Notes: generated from the sequence alone by a model not told the origin. Shown: positions 1-10,710, numbered from the stretch's first letter. The stretch: 64,000 bases of DNA from Chryseolinea lacunae (GCF_016735595.1 NZ_JAERRB010000005.1:124001-188000), one strand, 5' to 3'. Program-made: numbers and translations.

Positions 1-1092
1 TGTGCCTACAGCTTCCCTTATGGCTACTTTGATCATGAAACTATGAATGACTACCCCATGAACGAAGTTCTTGCCAAGTCAATGATCGACCTTCAATACT
101 ATGGCAAAAAAGAGTCAGGTAACATTAACAAGGGAAAACTCAGTACCTATCCGTTCCATCCAGCTGCAAACCCGGACTCCGAACAACAAACAGAAGTGTA
201 TATTGAAAATGCCATAAGGGCTGGCATAAGATATCAGATTTCCATTGGCCTTAATAATATCGTTATTCCAAACTTCTATGAAAACGATGACTTGGACAAA
301 CTCATAATCGTCATAAAAAATATCAACAGCTGGCTGGTCTCAAATAAGGTAGACGGAAAGAAATACTATATGACTATCCCGATAGCCAATCACACCGTTA
401 TTGATGCATCCAAAATGGACAAACTTCTATACTCCTTAACCGACATTGATATTCAATATGATGGATACTACATCGTCTGTGAAGCCCGACCAGAACATCG
501 ACAAAAAATATCGACAGATTTCAAATACCTGAATAATCTCTCTCGCTTTCTCTCTGTCCTTAAGAAACAAAAATTTGAGACGATTTACTCCTATGCCAAC
601 TGGGATGTCCTTATTTTTTTAGCCGTCACCAACATAGACTTCATAACAATTGCTTCTTACGAAAATCTTCGAAATTTCTCAATACGAAGATTTCTAATAA
701 ACGAAGATGGCGGCCCATCAAAGGGATGGTACTTTTCTGAAAAAATATTAAATTTCATCAAAGCTCAATTAATTGATTTAGTCAGAAGTCAGGGCGGATT
801 AAAAGTTATAAAAAATGAAAAAAACATTTTTTCCGATTCATGTCTCGAGGAATATTATGCATGGAGCAACCAGAAACCCGACGTTCATAAGAACTACCTC
901 CTATCAATAGATAGACTTCTTAAAAAAGTCGCATCAATAGCAGACTTAAATGAAAGAAAAAAATATGTTCTTTCTTTAATAGAGGACGCCATTCACGCCT
1001 ATCGAAAATTAGAGGAAAAGAAAATTTTTCTCACAGATGAGAGCAAAAATTATCACCTCGAGACTTGGAAATCATTTCTTCTTACCAAGTAA
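1..1092 (+). CDS. Unrecognised protein, 5' end outside window
   Basis: The frame is open from base 1 (it reads CAYSFPYGYF before the first ATG at 43), so the gene probably begins upstream; at least 363 residues are visible. No family recognised. Hydrophobic strands alternate with amphipathic helices: GLNNIVIP, KYYMTIPIAN, YDGYYIVCEA, FETIYSY, VTNIDFITIASYENLR. This resembles a TIM-barrel-like alpha/beta fold, followed by a helical lysine-rich C-terminus from about residue 275. No signal peptide or membrane segment is visible. Coding is extremely AT-rich compared with the rest of the window. Its stop overlaps the 3' end of the convergent nuclease-like gene by 21 bp. Coding status is likely; function unknown. 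Confidence 0.7.
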   Translation, partial: CAYSFPYGYFDHETMNDYPMNEVLAKSMIDLQYYGKKESGNINKGKLSTYPFHPAANPDSEQQTEVYIENAIRAGIRYQISIGLNNIVIPNFYENDDLDKLIIVIKNINSWLVSNKVDGKKYYMTIPIANHTVIDASKMDKLLYSLTDIDIQYDGYYIVCEARPEHRQKISTDFKYLNNLSRFLSVLKKQKFETIYSYANWDVLIFLAVTNIDFITIASYENLRNFSIRRFLINEDGGPSKGWYFSEKILNFIKAQLIDLVRSQGGLKVIKNEKNIFSDSCLEEYYAWSNQKPDVHKNYLLSIDRLLKKVASIADLNERKKYVLSLIEDAIHAYRKLEEKKIFLTDESKNYHLETWKSFLLTK

Positions 1093-1734
1093 ACTCAATT
1101 TTACTTGCTCACTAAGAAGAATGCTCATGCTTTCATTAATAGGTCTCTCTATTTTAGGCTTAAAGTGCACAGTTAACAGCCCATCGAGATCGATTACTGC
1201 CAGGCCGACATTCATTTTTTTGAAATGACTGAGATTTTTCACAGCAGGTAGGGAATATTTACTATCAAGCACCACGAACGCCTGTGATGCAAACCACCTA
1301 TATCGAAACGCTTGATTCAATGCTCTCTTCCAATCTTTTAGCTTCGCTTCAACGGCCACGCTCTTTGAGATCACATGGGAATACGAGCGCTTTGCTCTAA
1401 ATAATTCATCCTTGCTATCAATATAACCATTCATTTGTAGTTTGTGCAATGATCTCCTGACCTGAAGTTGATTTGCTTTTGTCTTCTCAATGATGTTCAA
1501 AAATGAAGCTTTTTTACTATCAGAAATTACCTTATATATCAGAATATCAAAATGACCCAATTCGTCCTTCACAAATGCAGCTTTGTTAACCTGAGAGATT
1601 ACCAAGTCAGCAATACCAAACCCCAAATCGACCTCCTCCAAAATTTGCGTTTTTGATTTCTCTAAATTCCAGCAACAAATTTCCTTATAGTTAACCCTAA
1701 GTTTTTTCACCAATTGTTTTTCTGTCGCAAACAT
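1072..1734 (-). CDS. Winged-helix domain inserted in PD-(D/E)XK nuclease-like protein
   Basis: 220 residues. Near residue 40 GFGIADLVIS could supply the acidic residue of a PD-(D/E)XK core. Around 127-150 VAVEAKLKDWKRALNQA followed by FASQAFVVLD fits the E-x-K strand, the following helix and the next core strand. Between them, about residues 60-120, lies a segment that looks like a winged helix (IIEKTKANQLQVRRSLHKL then a wing with GYIDSKDELFRA). Seen: both motifs and their order. Inferred: a nuclease or nuclease-derived DNA-binding protein. It starts 6 nt after the PP2C stop, so the two are probably co-transcribed. AT-rich like its neighbours. Confidence 0.6.
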   Translation of the reverse strand: MFATEKQLVKKLRVNYKEICCWNLEKSKTQILEEVDLGFGIADLVISQVNKAAFVKDELGHFDILIYKVISDSKKASFLNIIEKTKANQLQVRRSLHKLQMNGYIDSKDELFRAKRSYSHVISKSVAVEAKLKDWKRALNQAFRYRWFASQAFVVLDSKYSLPAVKNLSHFKKMNVGLAVIDLDGLLTVHFKPKIERPINESMSILLSEQVKLSLLGKKK

Positions 1735-1740
1735 TTTTCT

Positions 1741-2409
1741 CTATTTAATCACCAACAGTGTAGCATCATCAAGATTATTACCTTTGATCATTTTCCTCAA
1801 ATTCTCCCTTATTGTCGACGGCCTCTTCTTATTCAAAACATTAAAAAAAAGTAATTTATTCTTCTCCATCAATGAATAAAATCCATCCGTGCACAAGGCC
1901 AAGAATCCCCGCTCTAGCCTGAATCTTTTCTGTTCAAAATCCCCATGACCTAGTTCTGCCATTCCCAAACATTTATTTAGCACATTTGAATCAGACACCT
2001 TGTCATCCTTACTAATTTGCTCAATGTACTGGTTTGTTACCAAGTAGATTCTACTGTCACCAACTGAAATATAAAAAACATCCTCACTATGCTTCAAAAT
2101 AACAACAATACAAACCGTTGAGAAGGGCTCAATTAAATTTGAGGCAACAATATAGTCATTACACTCGGCAATCATTGCCGACAATCTAATCCGCTCATGT
2201 AAGAATCTCTCATGATACTTTCTTATAAACATCGCAGCCATTTGCGTCGCTTTCTTTGCGTTTTTAGCTGATCCTACACCATCAAAAACAGCAAAAACAT
2301 CATACATCTCACTTTGTATTACCAATCTTGCGTCCTGATTTTGCAATCTACCAATCCCTTTTAAAGAGAGAGCAAAGAAATTCTTATCTCGTTTAACATT
2401 CTCGGCCAT
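1741..2409 (-). CDS. PP2C-family serine/threonine protein phosphatase
   Basis: 222 residues, close to a minimal bacterial PP2C domain. Metal-binding and core motifs in order: VFAVFDGVGSA (about 37-47), ISVGDSRIYLV (about 114-124), LCTDGFYSLM (about 172-181) and the terminal DDATLLVI. All expected acidic metal ligands appear present, so it should be an active Mn/Mg-dependent phosphatase. Cytosolic; no membrane segment or sensor domain. It is the first gene of a two-gene minus-strand unit with the nuclease-like gene. No cognate kinase is visible in the window, though one could lie beyond the left edge. Confidence 0.85.
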   Translation of the reverse strand: MAENVKRDKNFFALSLKGIGRLQNQDARLVIQSEMYDVFAVFDGVGSAKNAKKATQMAAMFIRKYHERFLHERIRLSAMIAECNDYIVASNLIEPFSTVCIVVILKHSEDVFYISVGDSRIYLVTNQYIEQISKDDKVSDSNVLNKCLGMAELGHGDFEQKRFRLERGFLALCTDGFYSLMEKNKLLFFNVLNKKRPSTIRENLRKMIKGNNLDDATLLVIK

Positions 2410-2469
2410 GGAATGATCATCTAAAAAAAACAGAAACTCCCTTAAAGACCAATATCATTACTCTTGTGT

Positions 2470-2895
2470 TCATTCTTTCTTTCGGAACAATTCCTCCAAC
2501 AACACAATCTTCTCATCCTTCTCCTTCAACAACGCCACATACAAACTCTTAATCTCATCTACAAGCTTCTTATTCTCCTCAAGCGCCTGTTCAAGCTTAT
2601 CGTTGAAATGGCAGTTGTGAAAAGGTCCGTTATTTTGTAAAGGCGTAGATGAATCGTAGCTATTCTGAATATTATTAATCACCGCCTCATCATTATAATT
2701 CCTGATCACCTCTGGGGAGAAGCCCAGCACTTTGGCGATGCGGCCGAGGGTCACGTCTTCGATGGTTTCGTTTTGCTCGAGCTTGGAAACCGCCTGTTGG
2801 CTAATGCCCAGCTCTTCGGCCATCGTTTCCTGTTTAATTTCTCTGAGCTCGCGCAGGCGGCAAATGTTGCGGCCAATGTGGGGTGTTTTGGTCAT
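2470..2895 (-). CDS. XRE-family helix-turn-helix regulator
   Basis: 141 residues from ATG at 2895 (an upstream ATG at 2928 adds 11 unconvincing residues). The N-terminal HTH_3 fold covers about 5-60, with core IKQETMAEELGISQQAVSKLEQ, a typical phage-repressor-like DNA-binding helix. The C-terminal third is a Lys/Glu-rich coiled coil (LEQALEENKKLVDEIKSLY), probably for dimerisation. The HTH-coding part is GC-balanced, while the coiled-coil part is AT-rich like 1-2410, so the composition boundary falls inside this gene. No target site identified. Confidence 0.8.
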   Translation of the reverse strand: MTKTPHIGRNICRLRELREIKQETMAEELGISQQAVSKLEQNETIEDVTLGRIAKVLGFSPEVIRNYNDEAVINNIQNSYDSSTPLQNNGPFHNCHFNDKLEQALEENKKLVDEIKSLYVALLKEKDEKIVLLEELFRKKE

Positions 2896-3102
2896 AGACC
2901 AAAGGTAAGGAAAGAAGTCTTTAGTCAAGAGGGTTGAGTATTGAGATTTTTGGGGTCGTTTGGTTGTAGCCGTCTTTTGAATAGGGTCTGTCGGGGTGTA
3001 GCGAACAACCTTGCCGTTGTGATTGTGAATTTAATGCTCGCGGTCTGTTTGGCGGAGGTGAGGTGTTGCGCTATCTTTGATTTCGTACCGTCTGCCTCGT
3101 TG

Positions 3103-3765
3103 ATGCGCCATTTTGTTGTTTCCCTGTTTGTTGCCTGTTGCCTCTTCTCATGCAAGCCCCCGGCTGCGCCCGCCGAGCCACCATTGGCAACCGACACGGT
3201 TGTGCACACAACCGAACCCATCGGGCCGTTGCCGCCACCAAAGGCCCGTGTGCCTTCGTCGATACTATTGTTCGACACTTTGCAGGTGCCGGAGTTTGTG
3301 GCGCTCTTCAAAGTAAAAGAACGACGTGTCTACGATCTGCCCAACGACACCACGCTGGTGCCTATCTGGAACACATCGGGCGTCAAGCATGCGCGCTGGA
3401 TTGTCGTGAACGATTCAGTAAAAGCAGGTCCCCTGCAGGGCTATCCCATGTCGTTCCGCGAAATGAAAGGTGGCATCAAACGCTTCACCGTGGTTAGCGA
3501 ACATGAGAACATCATCTACTTGACCGCCTACACGCTCGACAAGTTCTTCAACATTGTTGACACGGAACATCTGACCTACCAGGGCGGCGATGTTGATGTA
3601 GCCGAAGGAGCCAACGGCAAATTTGTGAACGACTCCACCTACCTGCGAACCGAAATAACAACCGAATATGACATCGTTGGCGACGACCCGCCAGACGTCT
3701 CCACCCACAAGGTGAAGCTGCTCTTTCATGCCAATGGACAGATTGAGGTGAAGGCGCATTTTTAG
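3103..3765 (+). CDS. Predicted lipoprotein, function unknown
   Basis: 220 residues from ATG at 3103; a longer frame from 2941 has poor Cys/Arg-rich content and was not used. MRHFVVSLFVACCLFSC is a lipoprotein signal with the lipobox Cys at 17, followed by a Pro/Ala-rich linker to about residue 50. The mature part has alternating strands (FTVVSEHENIIYLTAY, VKLLFHANGQIEVKAHF), suggesting a small beta domain. Family not recognised. Likely tethered to the periplasmic or outer-membrane side. Convergent with the lipoprotein gene at 3829. Confidence 0.7.
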   Translation: MRHFVVSLFVACCLFSCKPPAAPAEPPLATDTVVHTTEPIGPLPPPKARVPSSILLFDTLQVPEFVALFKVKERRVYDLPNDTTLVPIWNTSGVKHARWIVVNDSVKAGPLQGYPMSFREMKGGIKRFTVVSEHENIIYLTAYTLDKFFNIVDTEHLTYQGGDVDVAEGANGKFVNDSTYLRTEITTEYDIVGDDPPDVSTHKVKLLFHANGQIEVKAHF

Positions 3766-7014: not shown

Positions 7015-7821
7015 TCAATCTCCTCCACAACCGCCACCACATCCTCCCCCACTACAACCACTGTCACCCCCGCTGTCGCCACCACATCCACTATCACCCG
7101 ACGAATTATCGTTTCCGCATGAACTATCAAACTGACTATCATACGTACTGAAATCACTCCAGCATCCACCCCCTGCCACAAACGGCGGCGCCGTCTCTAC
7201 CATGTGCTCCTGCAAGGCCCGCTCTATTGTGCGCGCCAATTCCACATCAATGCCGCTCAATAGAAAAATATTCCCGCCAATGCCCTTCAACATCTCCAAT
7301 GTGTTAGCACGATCCTTTTTCATTTTTTGAGGCAGGTCGCTTTCCAACGTGGCAATCTCGTTTTCAACTTCCGTTTGCCACTGAAGACCCTGACGGGTAT
7401 ATGAAAATTTTCCACTAAAGCGCTGCCAGAAACTTCTTTCAAAAGCAGCGCCTAATGTGGCAGTACTAAAAAGGTCTGTAACATACCAACCACGCGATTT
7501 GGCATTTTCATAGCCAACCTTCACCAGGTTTCTGAACAGGATGCTCAGATCACTATTTTTTTTGCCCGACTTGAACGGCGACAGAAAAACCCTCTCGTGC
7601 ACGCGCGCCTTATAGGTTGCGAACTGCGCGCCGGTCGAAACATATTTATACTTCTGCACAGGCTCCTTCGGGTGTGCCTGTCGCGTCACATCTTTCATCT
7701 CCAGCACCTGCTTCAGCAACAGATCCATGAGGGTGAACTTCAGCATCTCATTCAACGTAACCGTGTCGCCCTTTCGAAGCAACAGGGTTTCTGCGGGGGT
7801 CAGAGTCGAAAGCAGTTTCAA
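7015..7821 (-). CDS. Protein with Cys/Gly/Ser-rich C-terminal tail
   Basis: 268 residues. Residues 1-215 form an all-alpha-looking region (MKLLSTLTPAETLLLRKG, then helices to ALQEHM) with a weakly hydrophobic segment near 185-200 (GIGGNIFLLSGIDV). The last ~50 residues are low-complexity Gly/Ser/Asp/Cys with about ten Cys in GCGG/GCSGG/GCGGD units. Its start overlaps the stop of the DUF1399-like gene by 4 bp, implying translational coupling. Similar Gly/Cys-tailed proteins often accompany glycine-rich-domain proteins in Bacteroidota; function unknown. The Cys-rich tail could bind metal or form disulfides (inference). Confidence 0.7.
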   Translation of the reverse strand: MKLLSTLTPAETLLLRKGDTVTLNEMLKFTLMDLLLKQVLEMKDVTRQAHPKEPVQKYKYVSTGAQFATYKARVHERVFLSPFKSGKKNSDLSILFRNLVKVGYENAKSRGWYVTDLFSTATLGAAFERSFWQRFSGKFSYTRQGLQWQTEVENEIATLESDLPQKMKKDRANTLEMLKGIGGNIFLLSGIDVELARTIERALQEHMVETAPPFVAGGGCWSDFSTYDSQFDSSCGNDNSSGDSGCGGDSGGDSGCSGGGCGGGCGGD

Positions 7822-8306
7822 GCCAGTGGTTTTTTAATGATCCAAAATTTATCAACGTTCACGCGGCGGAAATTCACATCGCGAAAACGCACGTCGTTGG
7901 GTGGCCAAAGATCAGCAGGAGGTGGCTGGTTGAAGGTGCTGGCATAAAACGTTTTGGTGCGCGAATACCAGTCGTGATACTTGTCGCGCTCCTGCCCGCC
8001 GCCCCTGGTGGGGCCGTGATGTATTTTCTGTTGCAGCGTGTGTTCACAAAAATCTTCCCAATACGACCGGGTGTAGAGCAAGTGCAAATGCCACACCTGG
8101 TCCACCGCGTCCGACGGTGTGAGCGGCGTGGGCGAAATGCAGATCAGGAACATAAACCGTTTGTATTCTTCGATGGCGCGCAGGGCAAATTCGAGGGTCC
8201 ATCCATTTTCGCGGGCCAGCCGGTCGCTAAACGTGAACGCCGCCGAGGGATCGTCCACTTCGAACGACCGGATGCTGTTCCAGAGTGCGGTATACGCAGG
8301 ACTCAT
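7818..8306 (-). CDS. Glycine-rich-domain (DUF1399-like) protein
   Basis: 162 residues from ATG at 8306; an upstream ATG at 8381 adds a non-conserved 25 residues. Core motifs DAVDQVWHLHLLYTRSYWEDFC (about 90-111) and HHGPTRGGGQERDKYHDWYSRT are what I associate with DUF1399/GRDP-type proteins, whose His/Trp-rich core recurs in bacteria and plants. Function is not established. Cytosolic by appearance. Forms a coupled pair with the following Cys/Gly-tailed gene. Confidence 0.7.
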   Translation of the reverse strand: MSPAYTALWNSIRSFEVDDPSAAFTFSDRLARENGWTLEFALRAIEEYKRFMFLICISPTPLTPSDAVDQVWHLHLLYTRSYWEDFCEHTLQQKIHHGPTRGGGQERDKYHDWYSRTKTFYASTFNQPPPADLWPPNDVRFRDVNFRRVNVDKFWIIKKPLA

Positions 8307-8973
8307 AGTGCCGGCTTGCTTTTTTCCTTGAATTCGTTTTTCCGGAAAGCACAGGAAACTTCCCCAAAACGAGTTCGTCAAAGATAAAAATTAAAGGCAT
8401 CAACAACGCACATCCCTGTTTTCATGACACACCCGACAAGCCGAAATGACAGCCCGAAATTAACCTGAAAAATTATCGCTCCAAACCCAACCTGCCGACA
8501 CCCGGCCCGTTACACACCCTTGTTTGGAGCGCGATGCCCGAAGCCGACTAACCACCGGGCTACGGGTGTAGCGAAAAACACTAAAAAACCACGTTAACAA
8601 GAATGTAAACGAATCGCTTGGCGCCGCACGGTAGATACACGGTTGCGCCGTTCCGGGAGGGACGTTGGAATTTTTATTCCGTTTCTAAGACAAATCCGAA
8701 ACAAAGCTCAAACCACATGGGGATCTGACGCTATTATGCGCCATTTTTTCCTGTGCAACAGTTTGGCCCAATGGTTGCAATACCCTTCCCGATTGGAAGG
8801 CACAATGCATCCGGGACGGCCCGGACCGTTGGTGAAAAAACTTAGTTCGATTGTGCTTAAAAATCCACATGTCCCTCTCTGTGGGTTCCCGATTCTACAC
8901 TTTGGTAGCGTTTTGACGCCTGTAGCGATTGGAATTGTTTTTGTAATCAGAGCAAAGGAGGGTTTAATCTAAC
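8307..8973. other. 667-bp noncoding region with structured segment
   Basis: Divergent promoter region between the DUF1399-like gene and the L,D-transpeptidase gene. A frame at 8643-8972 looks spurious. It contains a 10-bp perfect inverted repeat with a second hairpin behind it (8477-8560, annotated separately), and an AGGAGGG ribosome binding site at about 8957-8963 for the gene at 8974. Confidence 0.5.
8477..8560. other. Candidate structured RNA/DNA element
   Basis: CGCTCCAAAC at 8477-8486 pairs perfectly with GTTTGGAGCG at 8522-8531. A second stem follows at once: GCCCG 8536-8540 with CGGGC 8556-8560. A competing pairing is possible between ACACCC in the loop (8514-8519) and GGGTGT just downstream (about 8564-8569). 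No U-tract follows, so it is not a plain terminator. Which strand is transcribed is unknown. Confidence 0.35.
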
Positions 8974-10710
8974 ATGTACACATCGTTCAAAATCTCGAAA
9001 AATCTTAACACACTCACGTACCTGACGCTGTCGGCCGCACTGTTCTATTCCTGCAGCCAACGCGTGGCACAGGTTGCCGTGGCACCCAAAGTGGCACAAG
9101 CCGACACCACCACGATGGTGGCGGAGCTACCGGCCAAGCCCGTGGGCATAGATTCCACTGCATTCAACAAAGCCGGCGCCGCCACCCTGGCCAAAGCCGC
9201 TCAATTCTATCGCCAGCACGGCTTTCAAAGCCAATGGCTGTTCGACACCAAGCCCTCGCCGCTCTTTGCCGCCCTTGAAGCAACGCTGAACGATGCCGGC
9301 AAATTTGGCCTGCGCGCCAGCGACTACGACGTGCAAGGCATTCAGGAAAAAGTAAAAATACTCTATAGCGAAAAGGCTGTCGACCGCAAAGCGCTCGCCA
9401 CCCTCGACGTCTACATCACCGAAATGCTGTTCCATTTCACCACACACCTCAGCACCGGCAAAATCACCGAAGTGGTGAGCGGCCGCAGCATCTGGATGCC
9501 TGGCCAGCGCACCCTAAGCAGTGCCGACGTGGCCCTTATGAGCAAGGTGCAGACCCCGGCCGATTTCACCACGGCCATCCAACAGATTCAACCTGCCAAC
9601 GAACAATACGGCAAGCTTCAGCAGGCCCTCGCCTACTATCGTGCCCTCGAAAAAAACACACCGGCCGCCATCGACATTGTGAAAGGCACCAAAGTGAAGC
9701 TGGACGACCACAACGCCATTGTGCCCTCGGTGCGCAAAAAACTTTCGCTCACCGACATGCGCCCCTACGCCATGACGCTCGACAGCCTTACGGGCACGTT
9801 CGATTCGCTGCGCTATGACGCCACGCTGGTCGATGCCGTGAAAATGTTTCAAGCCAAACACGGCCTGGAACCCGATGGTGTGATCGGCGAAAAAACACTC
9901 CGGTTCATGAACCAGTCGTTCAAAGACAAAGCCGACGTGATCGCCCTCAACATGGAGCGCATGCGCTGGTCAACCGAAAAGTATGGCGACAACTACATCT
10001 TTGTGAATGTGCCCGCCTACACCCTCACGGTCTATGAAAACCGGAAGCCCGCGCTGCAAATGCGCGTGATCGTGGGCGCGGTAGACAAACCCACACCCAT
10101 CTTCAGCGACGCGCTTGAATACATTGTGTTCAGCCCCACCTGGACGGTGCCCACCAGCATCATCAAGGAAGAGATCATTCCGCGCCTCAAAAGCAACACG
10201 GCCTATTATGCCGACAAAAACTACGCGTTCTATAAAGACGAAGTGCCCATCGACCCCACCACCGAAGTGTGGGACGACACGGCCAATCCTTACAAATATC
10301 GCATCGTGCAGCAACCCGGTCCTGACAACTCGCTGGGTCTGGTGAAATTCATTATGCCCAACAACATGAGCGTCTACCTCCACGACACACCCAACCACCG
10401 CCTGTTCACCAAAGACTATCGCGCGCTGAGTCACGGCTGCGTGCGCGTAGACGAACCTGCCAAGCTGGCCGCATACCTCATGCGCGATCAGAAAGGTTGG
10501 GATACCAAGCGCATTCAGGAAGCCATGCATGCCACACAGCCTGCCACCATTCACCTGAAAAAGAAACTGGACGTGCACATCGAATACATCACCGCCTGGG
10601 TAGACGAGAACGACACCATCAACTTCCGGGAGGATATCTACGGACACGACAAACGTCAGCTGCAACAGCTTTATCCAAAAGACAAAGCCGGAGCCATTGC
10701 GGGATTGTGA
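8974..10710 (+). CDS. Murein L,D-transpeptidase (YcbB-like, lipoprotein)
   Basis: 578 residues. Lipoprotein-type signal ending LFYSC at about 27. Scaffold domain about 60-230; peptidoglycan-binding domain about 285-312 (VDAVKMFQAKHGLEPDGVIG); YkuD catalytic domain about 330-500 with HDTPNHRLF (His 470) and SHGCVRV (His 487, Cys 489 nucleophile). This layout matches L,D-transpeptidases that form 3-3 cross-links or anchor lipoproteins to peptidoglycan. Lipidation suggests periplasmic action at the membrane. A strong AGGAGGG precedes the ATG. The 3' end is convergent with a second, different L,D-transpeptidase only 8 bp away. Confidence 0.9.
   Translation: MYTSFKISKNLNTLTYLTLSAALFYSCSQRVAQVAVAPKVAQADTTTMVAELPAKPVGIDSTAFNKAGAATLAKAAQFYRQHGFQSQWLFDTKPSPLFAALEATLNDAGKFGLRASDYDVQGIQEKVKILYSEKAVDRKALATLDVYITEMLFHFTTHLSTGKITEVVSGRSIWMPGQRTLSSADVALMSKVQTPADFTTAIQQIQPANEQYGKLQQALAYYRALEKNTPAAIDIVKGTKVKLDDHNAIVPSVRKKLSLTDMRPYAMTLDSLTGTFDSLRYDATLVDAVKMFQAKHGLEPDGVIGEKTLRFMNQSFKDKADVIALNMERMRWSTEKYGDNYIFVNVPAYTLTVYENRKPALQMRVIVGAVDKPTPIFSDALEYIVFSPTWTVPTSIIKEEIIPRLKSNTAYYADKNYAFYKDEVPIDPTTEVWDDTANPYKYRIVQQPGPDNSLGLVKFIMPNNMSVYLHDTPNHRLFTKDYRALSHGCVRVDEPAKLAAYLMRDQKGWDTKRIQEAMHATQPATIHLKKKLDVHIEYITAWVDENDTINFREDIYGHDKRQLQQLYPKDKAGAIAGL

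Follow-up and report, generated by a model that had tools for sequence, protein, structure and literature searches.

The left end of a 64,000-nucleotide stretch of Chryseolinea lacunae DNA (G000:C25:124001-188000, hereafter the window) carries part of a conserved gene set that travels together as a module, comprising a Ser/Thr kinase, a protein with a modelled tRNA-guanine transglycosylase (TGT) fold and a predicted winged-helix nuclease, accompanied here by a PP2C-type phosphatase. We propose, giving it about an even chance, that this mobile module is a phosphorylation-controlled, toxin-antitoxin-like defence or conflict system. The module is small (3–4 genes, about 3.3 kb), and two of its three core proteins lie outside curated families, yet the set recurs across many phyla. 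The combination of genes and the two unnamed core families are apparently undescribed, as judged from a literature search that was short on bioRxiv preprints and subscription papers.

The gene set recurs as a unit across many phyla

We scanned 84,980 species genomes with one nuclease motif, built from five close sequences, and recovered 68 loci; the locus sample is partial because this single motif was the genome bait. A TGT-like gene adjoins 66 of the 68 nuclease homologues from other genomes. The kinase is present at 55 of the 68 loci and a PIN-domain gene without kinase at six, from Patescibacteria, while the other seven comprise six loci cut by a contig end and one with only a short nuclease-like fragment. 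When one set of 395 genomes from the phylum Bacteroidota was searched with each protein separately, the nuclease matched six and the TGT-like protein five, and all five are shared, at the same loci; hypergeometric arithmetic, in which relatedness is ignored, gives 7.7e-11 for this sharing. Furthermore, pairwise distances computed for each of the three proteins at 62 loci are correlated, with Spearman coefficients of 0.57–0.72 and a maximum of 0.22 in 500 permutations. The island reading of the initial annotation was to be refuted by homologues scattered without co-occurrence, or by a housekeeping family assignment of the 5′-truncated protein; we find instead near-total co-occurrence and no curated family.

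The nuclease and TGT-like genes are convergent at 68 of 79 loci, with overlapping ends at 54, and the kinase is fused to the TGT-like protein at nine loci. The module occurs in Bacteroidota, Pseudomonadota, Actinomycetota, Patescibacteria, Verrucomicrobiota, Chloroflexota and other phyla, and on an archaeal plasmid. When viral contigs were searched with the TGT-like protein, two loci were found, both with kinase and nuclease, one of which is again the L020 contig of our locus set; a search of viral contigs with the Bacteroidota-type TGT-like protein gave no match. The tree of the TGT-like protein follows phylum for the most part, with Bacteroidota mixed with rows from SAR324, Thermodesulfobacteriota and Spirochaetota. 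Loci L073, L075 and L089, which carry the labels Chlorobiota, Peptostreptococcaceae and archaeon, are nearly identical and probably represent mis-binned contigs from a single lineage.

Layout and composition of the Chryseolinea locus

Extension to the left along contig C25 reveals a Ser/Thr kinase gene, a core part of the module that escaped the initial annotation by falling outside the window. The cluster core of ~3.3 kb (L007:15117-18430, equivalent to contig C25:123117-126430) begins 0.9 kb left of the window and forms a four-gene unit, in which the kinase and the TGT-like genes, in that order, face the PP2C and nuclease genes (Table 1). The kinase and TGT-like genes overlap by 4 bp (ATGA), the convergent TGT-like and nuclease genes overlap by 21 bp at their 3′ ends, and the PP2C gene lies 6 bp upstream of the nuclease gene, in line with the original description of a first gene converging on a coupled PP2C and nuclease pair. 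The PP2C identity given in that description is confirmed by Pfam.

The description of the cluster as AT-rich also holds. The G+C content of the core is 37.4%, compared with a mean of 51.9% (standard deviation 1.7, minimum 46.7) for stretches of equal length in the ~76 kb around it, and the anomaly is therefore real. Positions 721-780 contain 14/60 G+C, the sole block so low among the 1,067 sixty-base blocks of the window, and positions 9661-9720 contain 34/60. Searches for direct and inverted repeats around the island gave chance-level matches only, with no obvious insertion duplication, and promoter and terminator scans were likewise at chance level.

Table 1. Genes of the Chryseolinea lacunae locus and PIN-domain genes of Patescibacterial-type loci
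Feature	Position	Length	Family match
Ser/Thr kinase	C25:123126-123917, left of window	263 aa	PF00069 2.3e-24
TGT-like protein	window 1..1092 (+); start C25:123914 = window -86	392 codons, 3′ 363 in window	
Nuclease-fold protein	window 1072..1734 (-)	220 aa	
PP2C-type Ser/Thr phosphatase	window 1741..2409 (-)	222 aa	PP2C_2 7.5e-15
XRE-family regulator	window 2473..2895 (-)	141 aa	HTH_3 2.1e-10
PIN-domain gene	L074:8684-9118		
PIN-domain gene	L079:8658-9128		PIN_3 1.2e-13
PIN-domain gene	L081		
PIN-domain gene	L082		
PIN-domain gene	L085		
PIN-domain gene	L091		
PIN-domain gene	L032:6224-6667		

The TGT-like protein is modelled as a transglycosylase barrel

We used an AlphaFold2 model of the Chitinophaga orthologue (L036), which is 62% identical to the window protein and has a mean predicted local distance difference test score (pLDDT) of 92. 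The model is a (beta/alpha)8 barrel of the tRNA-guanine transglycosylase fold, so the 'TIM-barrel-like' label of the initial annotation was right in kind. The top 50 VIA-align matches are all tRNA-guanine transglycosylases (Z 18.9–19.5, 294–315 residues), among which 1j2b aligns over 294 residues with a root-mean-square deviation of 3.4 (Z 19.5). As modelled, the protein is a member of the TGT superfamily by fold. None of 52 members of the TGT-like family matches the TGT Pfam family PF01702 at E<=1, and the protein has no meaningful own-family match in Pfam, NCBIfam or PADLOC. In addition, phmmer and profile searches of PDB sequences return chance matches only (e.g. antibody chains), and a structural search of BFVD returns no informative viral relative. 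The ordinary TGT of the host is a separate gene, on contig C24.

Residue D59, located where barrel strand 3 ends, is invariant (52/52), and a CxCxxC...H zinc-type motif occurs in 20 of 79 members (in Patescibacteria, Actinomycetota, Bacillota and Chloroflexota) and is absent from the branch of the window protein. The catalytic residues of TGT are Asp102, Asp156 and the nucleophile Asp280, in Zymomonas numbering. By strand order, D59 would fit Asp102, while the position of Asp156 is occupied by F, R or Y and that of the nucleophile mostly by Gly. Because the profile alignment to 25 TGTs is weak and not significant (probability ~1%), with several branches putting D59 opposite the Asp of the TGT DSGG motif, we infer this mapping from strand order.

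The nuclease-fold protein combines a winged helix with a PD-(D/E)xK-like core

The model of the nuclease-fold protein (pLDDT 96) has a restriction-endonuclease-like core into which a winged helix (residues about 55–117) is inserted, bearing out in kind the earlier 'winged-helix/nuclease-fold' assignment. Structural matches that run along the whole chain are PaqCI (Z 11.3, 142 residues) and 3dnx (Z 11.5, 130 residues). All or nearly all of 51 homologues retain residues E34, D43, E129-x-K131 and Q141. The modelled fold is PD-(D/E)xK-like with an E/D...ExK...Q catalytic set, and the protein is a predicted nuclease; it has no own family in Pfam or PADLOC. Distant nuclease-fold relatives on haloarchaeal plasmids (L017:4548-5276 and L018:4626-5423) are not accompanied by a TGT-like gene, and one of them adjoins a DUF6884 protein.

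Kinase, phosphatases and a PIN-domain variant

The kinase is a Hanks-type Ser/Thr kinase in which HRDFKPQN and DFGI are present, and the HRD...N and D[FLVM]G motifs are intact in most of 67 homologues. A PP2C gene adjoins the module in the Bacteroidota-type branch and also in relatives from SAR324 and Smithella; Desulfocapsa has it on the opposite side. A calcineurin-like phosphoesterase with intact motifs (GDxHG/GDxxDRG/GNHE) replaces PP2C at six gammaproteobacterial-type loci, one of which is viral contig L020, and on the archaeal plasmid. PP2C and the calcineurin-like phosphoesterases are unrelated families, and the presence of one or the other beside the kinase, as a matter of gene content, points to dephosphorylation as part of the circuit.

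The Patescibacterial-type module has no kinase, and a PIN_3-domain protein is encoded between the TGT-like and nuclease genes. Judged by gene content, kinase and PIN domain could therefore be alternative outputs. Taken together, the use of two phosphatase families by branch and of PIN for kinase in another branch gives the pattern of a modular effector circuit. In Chitinophaga, a second Hanks-type kinase gene (L036:13210-14145) lies 3 kb past the module.

The module is carried on mobile DNA

The TGT-like, nuclease and kinase genes adjoin one another on plasmids of Priestia, Kineococcus, Kocuria and the archaeon Natribaculum. The module lies next to a P4-like primase at L020 and next to a serine recombinase at L039, and at L037 it is on an element with a relaxase and an integrase, the primase and relaxase labels being read from sequence and not from a family search. 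In Vibrio metschnikovii (L060:53-6990), apparent Tn7-like tnsB/tnsC/tniQ genes, identified by eye, are directly beside the module, which suggests that this copy is transposon cargo. The module is present in one of the six genomes of the genus examined, being absent from the other five. Because the order of the surrounding genes is not preserved in those five genomes, the comparison yields no clean empty site. The best reading is that the gene module is mobile and horizontally spread.

Proposed working of the module and alternatives

Our proposal of a sensor, a kinase effector, a nuclease and a phosphatase follows the precedents of KKP, CapK/CapS and VapKSC, Cap10 and DpdA. The nearest working precedent is the prophage system KKP (PfkA/PfkB/PfpC), in which a phosphatase restrains toxic Ser/Thr kinases until a phage protein sets them free, giving a tripartite toxin-antitoxin system with anti-phage activity (PMC11341870). 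The module resembles KKP in having a Ser/Thr kinase output opposed by a phosphatase on mobile DNA. However, KKP has two kinases and one phosphatase, whereas the module has one kinase, adds the TGT-fold protein and the winged-helix nuclease, and has a phosphatase that is PP2C, calcineurin-like or not found.

Under our proposal, the TGT-fold protein would be the sensor or targeting part, linked to the kinase through gene overlap or fusion, and would recognise a nucleobase or nucleic-acid state altered on infection or invasion. At rest, the phosphatase would hold the kinase targets dephosphorylated. Once triggered, the kinase output (in Patescibacteria, the PIN-domain RNase) and the DNA-binding nuclease would halt invader replication or host growth, an outcome resembling that of a toxin-antitoxin or abortive-infection system, and the phosphatase would reset the circuit. 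Our data show the conserved gene set, the folds, the intact motifs of kinase, phosphatase and nuclease, the fusions and the two phosphatase families, and from these we infer the defence or conflict role, the sensor role, the direction of regulation and the toxicity. So read, the module joins two themes, kinase-phosphatase toxin-antitoxin immunity and the reuse of TGT/QueC machinery in defence. A more specific form, which we put forward tentatively, is that the TGT fold acts as a reader without base exchange, which would bind a particular state of a nucleobase, whether in tRNA, in invader DNA or in a marked protein, and so switch the kinase or the PIN RNase, with the nuclease attacking DNA and the phosphatase resetting the system. 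If this is true, the module would represent a class of nucleobase-sensing, phosphorylation-driven immune system in many phyla.

The initial annotation had seen in the cluster a possible defence or signalling island, and the kinase-phosphatase pairing, the mobile carriers and a greater number of PADLOC-positive neighbours support that view indirectly. Proteins flanking the module match 151 PADLOC models, including Gabija GajA, an RT-RmuC DRT protein, PDC candidates and others, compared with 5 in a control set, a difference to be read in the light of a control (Bacteroidota tgt neighbourhoods plus this window) that is unmatched by taxon and size (106 vs 137 proteins) and of the many PADLOC models that a single protein can match. 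Several further observations count against a defence system. The copy in the window has no recognised defence genes within ~15 kb and no integrase beside it. PADLOC 2023 does not contain the module, and searches of complete E. coli genomes and of phage records gave no match for it. A phosphatase was found at only ~30 loci and is therefore not obligatory, and loci that have none show no evident cognate antitoxin. The evidence on the defence role is genomic context.

The likeliest alternative, which we regard as rather doubtful, is a stress-signalling or transcription-control module in which the kinase would phosphorylate a protein acting mainly as a DNA-bound winged-helix regulator and the phosphatase would reset it; there would be no killing, and the model would be CapK/CapS with its control of neighbouring immune operons. 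Consistent with this, no part of the nuclease-fold protein is matched better than its winged helix, and the protein also has weak matches to regulators and AbiEi-type repressors. Moreover, CapK/CapS and VapKSC, in which a kinase has a winged helix-turn-helix partner and VapC is an exchangeable output, show that such pairs can control immune operons and that a VapC-containing variant exists (PMC13373217); the module shares with them the kinase, the winged-helix partner and a PIN (VapC) RNase as alternative output. However, CapK belongs to the GHKL anti-sigma-like kinases and CapS is a STAS-winged-helix protein, whereas the module has a Hanks-type kinase, a PD-(D/E)xK-winged-helix protein and a TGT-fold protein. 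A mere regulator would not need the E34/D43/E129/K131/Q141 set, and the genes flanking the module vary between loci, with no constant regulated operon.

The presence of a TGT fold beside a PD-(D/E)xK-like nuclease also recalls Dpd, in which the TGT homologue DpdA serves DNA-marking defence (PMC12839542), and a restriction-modification system of that kind would mark host DNA with 7-deazaguanine and cut unmarked DNA. The module protein resembles TGT and DpdA in its whole-barrel fold and may also do so in the zinc-type motif of some members and, by strand order, in the placing of D59 at Asp102. It differs in giving no TGT Pfam match and in its partners, and probably at the expected positions of the base-recognition Asp156 and the nucleophile Asp280, where, again by strand order, F/R/Y and mostly Gly stand. 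No Dpd partners recur among the flanking genes, with no DpdB- or DpdC-specific search run, and the kinase and phosphatase would be left unexplained. We consider this reading unlikely.

A housekeeping operon for tRNA or DNA maintenance, merely variable in presence, could account for the TGT fold and for active kinase and phosphatase families that are common in Bacteroidota. It is made quite improbable by the patchy distribution (5/395 genomes, and one of six in the genus), the foreign base composition, the plasmid and mobile-element carriers and the ordinary TGT that the genome already has. Very unlikely, finally, is protein-nucleobase conjugation as in type IV CBASS, where the TGT-family protein Cap10 has been reshaped so that it binds the modified N-terminus of a protein (PMC11996544; PDB 9ntn); in this reading the module protein would likewise bind a deazaguanine-marked protein. 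The Foldseek top ten for the TGT-like model includes the Cap10-CdnD complex 9ntn, and both proteins have a TGT-family fold, which Cap10 puts to use in defence, but ordinary TGTs occupy the entire VIA-align top 50, the partners here are a kinase and a nuclease, and no QueC-like Cap9 or CD-NTase recurs among the clustered flanking genes, with no specific search run.

The XRE gene and other neighbouring features

The initial annotation counted the XRE-family repressor gene next to PP2C as a member of the cluster. We rejected this gene as part of the module and regard it as a resident neighbour, because it has no homologue at any other module locus and has native paralogues, ~81% identical in DNA, on contigs C25, C8 and C3 of the same genome. 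At the start of contig C25 (G000:C25:137-1353, L008:137-1353), an XRE paralogue stands beside a paralogue of the lipoprotein gene of the window (~3102-3765); this native pair is duplicated, and the copy lies at a break in the assembly. The other paralogues are at L009:6227-7876 (C8, near the contig end) and L010:156-593 (C3, contig start), one of which is followed by a 398-aa metalloprotease-like open reading frame (HEYAHIVFGH), and several assembly breaks of the genome fall near XRE copies. Elsewhere in the window, positions 7018-8381 hold a coupled pair of open reading frames, one with a glycine/cysteine-rich tail end (GGGCGGGCGGD).

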